This document shows positions 3,805 to 22,457 of a DNA stretch of 64,000 nucleotides, piece by piece. The DNA is from Guyparkeria halophila. GTDB taxonomy: Bacteria; Pseudomonadota; Gammaproteobacteria; Halothiobacillales; Halothiobacillaceae. The notes below the pieces were generated by a model. It searched no databases and was not told the origin of the DNA. It saw only the letters and a program-made list of their open reading frames with translations. The first letter of the stretch is position 1. Each line of letters starts with the position of its first letter. The position numbers and the translations under genes are program-made. The DNA is taken from contig NZ_CP140153.1 in assembly GCF_034479635.1 (NCBI RefSeq), forward strand, positions 689,501 through 753,500. Reading direction: 5' to 3'.

Positions 3805-4077
3805 TTAGGGAAGGGCTGCACGAATAGCCAACACCTCTGCGGGTCGCCAGGCGTCCAGATGCAAGGCGCAGTGCGTCGCCCAATGGCCGTCGCCATTGGC
3901 AAGCGCTGCAACACCGCAGATGGGCGCCTGGCGGCCCGCCCGAAGGGGCTTACCGGCTTGCCCGCCCTCGGTGTTGCCGATTCTCGCCGGGCACTGAGCC
4001 CGACTTCGAATCGGCGCCTTGATGGCGAACAAGCCGGTAAGCCAGAGGCATTGGCTATTCGTGCAGACCTTCCCTAA
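3805..4077 (+). repeat. Structured intergenic repeat, copy 1 (full length, 273 bp)
   Basis: Bounded by a perfect 16-bp inverted repeat (3816-3831 with 4051-4066), extended outward to TTAGGGAAGG/CCTTCCCTAA. It has two inner arms. Arm one is closed by CGCCAGGCG (3845-3853) with CGCCTGGCG (3925-3933) and carries an 8-bp hairpin at 3880-3899. Arm two is closed by a perfect 13-bp stem (3948-3960 with 4030-4042) and carries an inner stem at 3976-3983 with 4008-4015. It fills most of the 405-bp gap between the CZB gene and cbbY. It aligns end to end with the reverse complement of copy 2, with compensatory changes in every stem. Confidence 0.8.
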
Positions 4078-15296: not shown

Positions 15297-15538
15297 GATT
15301 GTCCTCGCACGGGCGGCTCGCCAAGCCCCGCAGGGCGAGCCTCGGGCCGGGCATCTGCGGCGTCGCACGGCCCGCCCGCGGACTTTCCCTTCGGGCCGGC
15401 GAATGCTGGCCGGAGCGGCTTCCTGCCGATCCGGTTCCGTCCTGGGAAAGGGAATCTCCCTTCCACCGCGGACGGTCGCCTTGCCTCTGCCCGGCTCACG
15501 ACGCGCCAAGCGTTATCGGATCCGCGCCGAGTTTCCCA
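15297..15538 (-). repeat. Structured intergenic repeat, copy 3 (partial, diverged)
   Basis: It aligns with the right two-thirds of copy 2. CGCACGGGCGGCTCGCCAAG, GCCCCGCAGGG, GGGCATCTGCGGCGT, GGGAAAGGGAATCTCCCTTCC, GCCTTGCCTCTGCCCGGCTC and GTTTCCC all have counterparts in the same order. About 60 extra bases are inserted between the conserved CATCTGC block and the AAAGGG/CCCTTT hairpin. The outer arm on the left and the left terminal inverted repeat are not recognisable. It lies in the 547-bp convergent gap between the LysR gene and the DUF302 gene, which otherwise holds only two terminators. Confidence 0.65.
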
Positions 15539-15612
15539 AGCGCGCATGGCGTCGCGTGATCGTGGTGAACGGGCGCGGATGGTTCGGTTGTTGTGACGGC
15601 TCGACGGGCACG

Positions 15613-21786: not shown

Positions 21787-22056
21787 AAGGAAACTCTGCA
21801 CGAATGCCATGCCACTCTGGCTTGGCGAGACGTTCGTGATCAAGGCGCGATGTCGCCGGCGTGCCGGTGGCCACGTCAAGACATCGCAACGCCGAGCACG
21901 GGCGACTCGCTAAGCCCCGCAGGGCGCGCCTTGAGCAGGGCATCTGCTGCGTTGTCGTCCTTGGAAAGGGAACAACCCTTTCGCGGCGGACGAACGCCTT
22001 GCATCTGCCCGGCTCAAGGCACGCAGAGCGGTATGGCATTCGTGCAGGGTTTCCCT
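21787..22056 (-). repeat. Structured intergenic repeat, copy 2 (full length, 270 bp)
   Basis: Perfect 15-bp terminal inverted repeat (21796-21810 with 22033-22047). The arms on the + strand are GCTTGGCGAG (21820-21829) with CTCGCTAAGC (21906-21915), enclosing GCGATGTC/GACATCGC (21847-21854, 21880-21887); and GCGCGCCTTGAGC (21924-21936) with GCTCAAGGCACGC (22012-22024), enclosing GAAAGGG/CCCTTTC (21964-21970, 21976-21982). Its last base is the first base of the queD stop codon. Read in reverse it aligns with copy 1 over the full length. Confidence 0.8.
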
Positions 22057-22457
22057 CAGGGGCGGAAGGTGACCGCCGAGCGCGCATTTTCCCAGACCGT
22101 GACGGCCGAGACCCGGTAGGCCTCGGTGTCGAAGGTCGTGGCCAGGGCCTGGTGGAAGTAGGCGGCCAGGTGTTCGGCGGTGGGATTGACCGTGTCGAAG
22201 GGTGGCACCTCGTTGAGGTAGGCATGGTCGAGCTGCTTGGCGATCTCGCGGGCCCGGGTCCGGATCACCTTGAAGTCGACCACCATGCCGACGTCGTCGA
22301 GCCGTTGGCCGGTGACCTCGATCACCACGCGCCAGTTGTGGCCGTGCAGTCGGGCACAGTTGCCGTCGTAGCCGTGCAACCGGTGGGCCGCGGCGAATTC
22401 CACCTCGGTGGTCAGGGTGTAACTGCCCCCTGACGGCAGGGAAGACGGGGTGCTCAT
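22056..22457 (-). CDS. queD: 6-carboxy-5,6,7,8-tetrahydropterin synthase
   Basis: The protein is 133 residues. It converts dihydroneopterin triphosphate to 6-carboxytetrahydropterin, the second step of queuosine synthesis. The zinc ligands are His in FAAAHRLHGY and the two His in LHGHNW. The catalytic Cys is in GNCARLHGH, and LDHAYLNEV and PTAEHLA are typical. It overlaps the dxs 3' end by four bases, so it is likely translated with the dxs/ispA/xseB mRNA upstream or has an internal start there. Confidence 0.94.
   Translation of the reverse strand: MSTPSSLPSGGSYTLTTEVEFAAAHRLHGYDGNCARLHGHNWRVVIEVTGQRLDDVGMVVDFKVIRTRAREIAKQLDHAYLNEVPPFDTVNPTAEHLAAYFHQALATTFDTEAYRVSAVTVWENARSAVTFRP

Follow-up and report, generated by a model that had tools for sequence, protein, structure and literature searches.

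A CTAG-targeting MITE of Guyparkeria halophila and a hairpin arm that recurs in many bacterial phyla

Introduction

A 64,000-nucleotide stretch of the Guyparkeria halophila genome (contig NZ_CP140153.1, positions 689501-753500; hereafter the window) contains a structured, intergenic repeat of about 270 bp. In an earlier note, made from the sequence alone, the repeat was described as a two-armed family whose helices had changed on both sides between copies while certain unpaired blocks stayed constant. This was read as selection on a folded RNA or DNA, and not as the remains of a transposon. The locus raises the question of whether such a repeat is a structured molecule, a mobile element, or both, and of what maintains its fold.

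Results

Copies of the element and evidence for mobility

The repeat is a MITE, a non-autonomous mobile DNA element. It is bounded by inverted terminal repeats (GGAANNTCTGCACGAAT), a target duplication and empty sites are found, and its copies are many and gene-less; at 265 bp the element is too short for a transposase gene, and none lies inside it. The 4-base YTAR/CTAG target is as in the IS5 group, and IS5 itself uses YTAR.

Arms were located with R1, a covariance model of the arm (in genome scans, cut-off E <=1e-4 per genome). The two complete copies lie where they had been claimed, the elements proper being 3809-4073 and 21789-22054; the span 3805-4077 given for the first also takes in a 4-base target duplication. 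The reported position of copy 2 beside the stop codon of a putative queD frame was likewise borne out. The third copy is real, but decayed and interrupted, and its fold reaches a z-score of only -2.6. The features in the window are:

3809..4073, plus strand: MITE copy 1, 265 bp, two arms (BLAST family in its own genome, scan for terminal inverted repeats, empty orthologous site)
3805..3808, no strand: left target-site copy TTAG (single CTAG in the empty sites of genomes G002, G007 and G005)
4074..4077, no strand: right target-site copy CTAA (empty orthologous sites)
3809..3836, plus strand: left terminal inverted repeat of copy 1 and base of the outer stem, inner limit approximate
4046..4073, minus strand: right terminal inverted repeat of copy 1, inner limit approximate
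3844..3934, plus strand, motif strand plus: arm A of copy 1 (R1, 75.3 bits, E 2.4e-20 in the window)
3954..4036, minus strand, motif strand minus: arm B of copy 1, convergent (R1, 29.4 bits, E 1.3e-6)
21789..22054, minus strand: MITE copy 2, 266 bp, beginning one base past the stop codon of frame 22056-22457
21929..22019, minus strand: arm A of copy 2 (R1, E 4.5e-16)
21823..21912, plus strand: arm B of copy 2 (R1, E 1.8e-9)
15307..15542, minus strand: decayed third copy, with arm A carrying an insert, the start of arm B and a worn end (BLAST pieces 15307-15363 and 15438-15527)

Over the window, R1 recovered the five expected arms and one weak match (E 0.15); the matched arm of the third copy spans 15340-15501, with E 1.6e-4. 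Paired end sequences CTGCACGAAT...ATTCGTGCAG at the given spacing are found twice in the window and in none of 100 shuffles.

Insertion can be followed at the site of copy 1. Between the same flanks, G002, G007 and G005 have a single CTAG, and the window reads TTAG-element-CTAA. At the orthologous place the element is present in G001, with 96% identity over the aligned bases, and in G003, where arm A and about ten bases near one end are missing. In the G001 ortholog the tip of arm B (window position 3992) carries 12 inserted bases, and a like insert is seen in G003. Because empty sites exist, a conserved, non-mobile host ncRNA or riboswitch family is refuted as the sole account. The strong covariation and wide phyletic spread described below would suit such a family, but the CTAG duplication, the many copies per genome, the unrelated ends and the missing Rfam match make it highly improbable. 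The contrast with a transposon drawn in the earlier note also fails, on the terminal inverted repeats, the YTAR/CTAG duplication, the three empty sites and an IS5-type insertion sequence with like outer ends.

Around 36 copies, the flanking 4-mers match at 86 of 144 positions against 74.4 in shuffles, a total that 19 of 5000 shuffles attained. Only 5 of these copies have the same 4-mer at either end, with 2.7 expected, and this is not significant (511 of 5000 shuffles reach 5). REP/REPIN elements are mobilised by a Y1 transposase (RAYT) and have a GTAG-type hairpin foot; inverted ends with a CTAG duplication favour a DDE route.

The host genome is complete (2,452,836 bases). Searched with copy 1 it gave 66 matching pieces, and with copy 2, 67. 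A scan of the retrieved loci, rather than of the whole genome, found at least 25 full-length copies (257-271 bp, at most 3 mismatches to a 15-nt pattern at each end), seven shortened copies (161-198 bp) and seven armless stubs (42-92 bp, at most one mismatch per end). One arm is kept in five of the seven shortened copies, those inspected by eye, some of them with a trace of the other arm. A copy at 2091440-2091771 of the genome has 332 bp and bears an extra GC-rich hairpin inserted between both arms.

Fold and covariation

Copies 1 and 2 are strongly folded (z -16.4 and -13.9), and none of 200 shuffles reaches either value. The compensatory change reported from two copies extends to the family: among 26 full-length copies chosen by the authors, 46 of 91 consensus pairs show two-sided change with pairing kept, many of these being differences between subfamilies, so that there are fewer events than cells. 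Searches of this genome and its relatives, which the earlier note had proposed, found many further copies. None of the outcomes that the note had named as refuting its reading occurred, since copies are numerous, the covariation lies beyond all shuffles and Rfam has no matching family.

In each arm, a hairpin, two variable stems are separated by the conserved internal loop CAAGGC/AACRCNG. In a MAFFT alignment of 67 diverse arms, out of 81 non-redundant ones, all 17 pairs of both variable stems show double changes, so that covariation also holds across species. The covariation score of 0.552 lies above every shuffle (0.147 +/- 0.009) and falls to 0.135 or less when the alignment is slid. The core of these arms was fixed by the search pattern, and its conservation here is by construction. 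It can be judged on 38 second arms, which were found by R1 and not chosen by exact pattern: C-A-A-G-G-C and A-A-C-R-C-N-G are kept in 36-38 of the 38 at each fixed position, counting R, in an alignment made by the model, which weights the core and tolerates G.U pairs. The block CAGATG is kept much less than the loop core in these arms. Among the unpaired blocks said to be constant, CAAGGC/AACRCNG is thus firm across species, whereas CAGATG is strong in one arm only.

No curated Rfam model matches the element, and the three Rfam matches obtained over eight loci all lie outside the elements. One region beside a MITE in G005 (locus L090, 1161-1276) matches the Rfam family TwoAYGGAY (RF01731) with 50.7 bits, the gathering score being 43. 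Comparison of the letters by eye with a kink-turn and other named RNA motifs gave no match.

The favoured strand

Mismatches in the outer arm stem, read on the motif strand, comprise 76 G.T against 20 A.C, and slid controls give about 1.1 to 2.1 to 1. Arm by arm, 44 lean towards G.T, 8 towards A.C and 15 are tied; by cluster, the lean is 28:4 with 43 clusters, 19:3 with 26 and 10:1 with 12. First and second arms lie on opposite DNA strands, and each leans to G.T on its own motif strand (24:10 and 43:3, counted in the alignment made by the model that tolerates G.U pairs). In the 67-arm alignment no such excess is seen for the inner arm stem, which has 18 G.T against 33 A.C; its slid controls range from 25:114 to 31:38, mostly further towards A.C.

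A lean on each arm's own strand indicates that a folded single strand is favoured, by selection or by mutation, and the single-stranded form of the arm seems to be constrained. C-to-T mutation of a hairpin-exposed strand could be an alternative source of the outer-stem excess. The favoured strand is RNA or single-stranded DNA, and the data fit both alike. Of the selection on folded RNA or DNA proposed earlier, what stands is a real covarying fold with one strand favoured in the outer arm stem.

Architecture of arms and ends

When 100 loci were scored with R1, 150 arm matches were listed. Adjacent arms are convergent in 36 of 38 pairs, and 34 of the 38 are spaced by 16-20 nt. Several arms of the same kind stand in a row over a few hundred bases at two loci, L158 (titled Candidatus Kuenenia) and L205; elsewhere arms are single or paired.

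Ends of at least 11 nt were recognized in 69 of 175 elements merged from R1 matches, 16 of the 69 belonging to one Streptomyces family; the other 106 show no such ends by the simple method used. YTAR occurs within 7 nt near the left end in 48 of the 69, near the right end in 46 and near both in 37; the frequency in random 14-mers is 2.9%. Two-armed elements with ends (n=34) measure 264-293 bp. The ends themselves vary widely between arm-bearing elements, as illustrated by CTAGTGCCGCGTCAGCC (Streptomyces), CTAGTGTGGTGTAAGG (Microbulbifer), TTAGGGCCCGTCAG (an acidobacterium) and TAACAGGCCGTTGAAAA (a betaproteobacterium).

Distribution of element and arm

Within the genus, 9 of 10 other genomes carry the element; in the family, 3 of 16 others do, one of them with a fragment at a contig end. 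Weaker matches were found in 2 of 30 genomes from other families of the class. In these two, genomes G041 and G047, the matches are complete two-armed elements with the same architecture and unrelated ends.

The arm is far more widespread. The exact loop pattern CAGATGCAAGGC-N32-60-AACRCCGCAGATG occurs in at least 118 stretches, with about 0.03 expected by chance on our own estimate, which assumes equal base frequencies. By title, the records among the matches listed (80 titles) come from about ten phyla, including Pseudomonadota, Deltaproteobacteria/Desulfobacterota, Acidobacteria, Bacillota, Streptomyces, Nitrospirae, Bacteroidota, Omnitrophota, Planctomycetota and Chlorobiota. Many of them are metagenome bins, the isolates being Pseudomonadota, Streptomyces, Geomobilimonas and Geothermobacter. 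R1 matched 81 of 274 genomes of the class, presumably Gammaproteobacteria, in 67 of 221 genera, three of the 81 being the host genome and two others of its genus; in the phylum of Geomobilimonas, presumably Desulfobacterota, 79 of 198 genomes were positive. A plasmid collection gave one weak match.

Search for a transposase

No match to the DDE transposase families PF01609, PF13586 and PF05598 was found in the host genome; old MITEs often lack a resident autonomous partner. Genome G019, from another genus of the same family, contains an IS5-type insertion sequence of 1.2 kb (PF05598) at locus L328. Its ends, GGAAGGTCTGATCAA, are flanked by TTAA on both sides, and the outer 10 of 15 bases are identical to those of the MITE. 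It has no arm, and no match to the MITE was obtained in G019. The proposed IS5 link by way of the ends draws on these ten bases of a single insertion sequence from another species.

An autonomous element with matching ends and an arm was absent from 30 PF01609 loci inspected after a search of 14 genomes (a single typed end for each genome, G305 having none) and from 10 PF05598 loci inspected after a search of 27; the search for PF13586 in 17 genomes gave 5 loci. An arm-bearing autonomous transposon was also looked for, and none was seen among the inspected loci.

At L175 (2099-3453), an outward-facing pair of one-armed elements about 1.1 kb apart surrounds a 337-codon frame and resembles a composite transposon. 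Locus L269, in the genome of Thioalkalivibrio denitrificans that also provided L166, holds a DDE insertion sequence (about 0.8 kb, 201-codon frame) with ends, AACAGGCCGTTGAAAA, that resemble those of a one-armed betaproteobacterial MITE (L184).

Change at resident sites and genomic setting

Rates of change in place come from five copies that each occupy the same place in two species. Paired sites changed at 52 of 910 (consensus fold) or 68 of 1131 (either fold), i.e., 5.7-6.0%, and unpaired sites at 34 of 416 or 18 of 195, respectively, i.e., 8.2-9.2% (p 0.09 and 0.11). A first count, in which stems appeared protected (4.7% against 13.5%, p 4e-6), was biased since the fold of one partner defined what was paired. 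A criterion based on both folds (3.0 against 16.6%) suffers from the same kind of bias, and the claim of stem conservation at resident sites was dropped. Compensation between orthologous copies is seen in only 3 of 47 changed pairs. Resident copies thus drift almost neutrally, and selection is not visible at resident sites. In two of the five orthologous pairs (L005/L104 and L008/L090, host against G006 and G005), the interior is inverted in place between the ends, with unchanged flanks.

These observations bear on a purely mutational origin of the covariation, in which hairpin-templated copying (quasi-palindrome correction or strand switching at the fork) rewrites one side of a stem from the other and the arms are functionless. 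Several features are in keeping with such copying: the element forms a single long nested palindrome, its orthologous copies are near neutral, and the inversion of interiors in place together with the loss of arms shows that the hairpins are mechanically active. The same process would, however, also wipe out the unpaired core, and the AA/AAC bulges and CAAGGC/AACRCNG persist across phyla, as the near-complete core of the second arms found by R1 shows; the low number of compensated pairs between orthologs is also at odds with it. Templated copying is accordingly considered an unlikely source of the pattern.

The genomic setting was examined on 164 elements, of which 52 are two-armed and 88 are usable one-armed elements, 85 with both neighbours; open reading frame calling was crude, and its frames overlap 31 of the 88. 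One-armed elements between tandem genes divide equally by orientation, 23 to 26, and 21 to 21 once one Streptomyces family is left out. Convergent genes flank another 25 and divergent genes 11. Near-neutral resident copies and the lack of a preferred orientation of one-armed copies relative to genes speak against an ordinary host RNA.

A related possibility is a cis-acting RNA, in which the arm in a read-through transcript would alter termination, stability or translation and so render insertions harmless; put-type antitermination RNAs and RNase III-processed repeats are models for such action. The outer-stem G.T excess on the motif strand fits RNA, convergent arms would provide a sense arm whichever way transcription runs, and one-armed elements are commoner between convergent than divergent genes. 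Against this stand the equal orientations between tandem genes and the lack of clear in-place constraint on resident copies, so that a cis-acting RNA appears rather doubtful, though still worth weighing.

Discussion

Taken together, the repeat is best explained as an IS5-type MITE moved in trans, whose single-strand arm module is selected for the element's own propagation or tolerance, a reading to which a probability of roughly 0.7 is given. An IS5-group transposase would act in trans on the outer ends. Insertion takes place at CTAG/YTAR with a 4-base duplication, and between the ends lies a module of one or two convergent arms, common to MITEs with unrelated ends in many phyla. The internal loop of each arm is fixed and asymmetric, CAAGGC facing AACRCNG, and bulges of AA and AAC stand one to each side. 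The arm is predicted to fold as a single strand, either as RNA or as single-stranded DNA during transposition or replication. Such an arm may be selected as an aid to propagation or tolerance of the element and not for use by a host gene at each site; the fold would then matter in the propagation of source copies rather than at each host site. The convergent pair might provide one correctly oriented arm per DNA strand or per read-through direction.

It is conceivable, as a tentative extension, that the loop hairpin is older or more mobile than any transposon family and serves as a general signal letting gene-less elements with unrelated ends amplify in many bacterial phyla. The reader of the single strand might be a widely conserved cell factor or IS5-like transposases, and the two-armed form would offer one signal per DNA strand.

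In two large groups, some 30% and 40% of the genomes sampled contain a structured element that has no Rfam match where tested. Should spread depend on the arm, different transposon families would have this cis signal in common, and a partner, protein or nucleic acid, would be implied. If only templated copying is at work, the arm would be a natural case of strong covariation without RNA function and a caution for covariation-based RNA discovery.

Comparison with known systems

ERIC, NEMIS/Correia, BOX and REP/REPIN are palindromic, mobile, mostly intergenic folding repeats, and the element resembles them in these respects. Each of them is confined to few lineages or has other ends or transposases (RAYT for REP), and to our knowledge none shares the arm loop. 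The put antitermination RNAs of HK022 consist of two hairpins acting in cis on transcription; they may be likened to the present arms by analogy only, in having two hairpins, the arms here being convergent with one per strand.

The literature text searched, in which preprints were outside the scope and subscription papers few, held no description of the arm or end sequences. A partial antecedent comes from the Geobacter metallireducens genome, for which 24 predicted short RNA elements were reported, intergenic and multicopy, with the central palindrome GRCGTAGCGCTGCTACGCC; similar sequences were given for G. sulfurreducens, G. uraniireducens and Desulfotalea psychrophila (PMC2700814). This palindrome resembles the tip of long arms, such as that at L139, and the Geobacter elements are likely identical with the arm. 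They were described as short RNA, and mobility, a common core or a wider spread are not described in the part of that paper available (PMC2700814).

As far as searched, the MITE itself is ordinary and the multi-phylum hairpin module is undescribed as such. Bacterial MITEs are mobilised in trans by insertion-sequence transposases, and the available part of a review on them contains nothing about a core common to many MITEs (PMC10969869). Like the elements treated there, the present one is short and gene-less, with inverted ends, a target duplication and transcripts predicted to form stable stem-loops. Unlike them, as far as seen, its interior is not the remnant of one insertion sequence but a fixed-loop hairpin module found across phyla.
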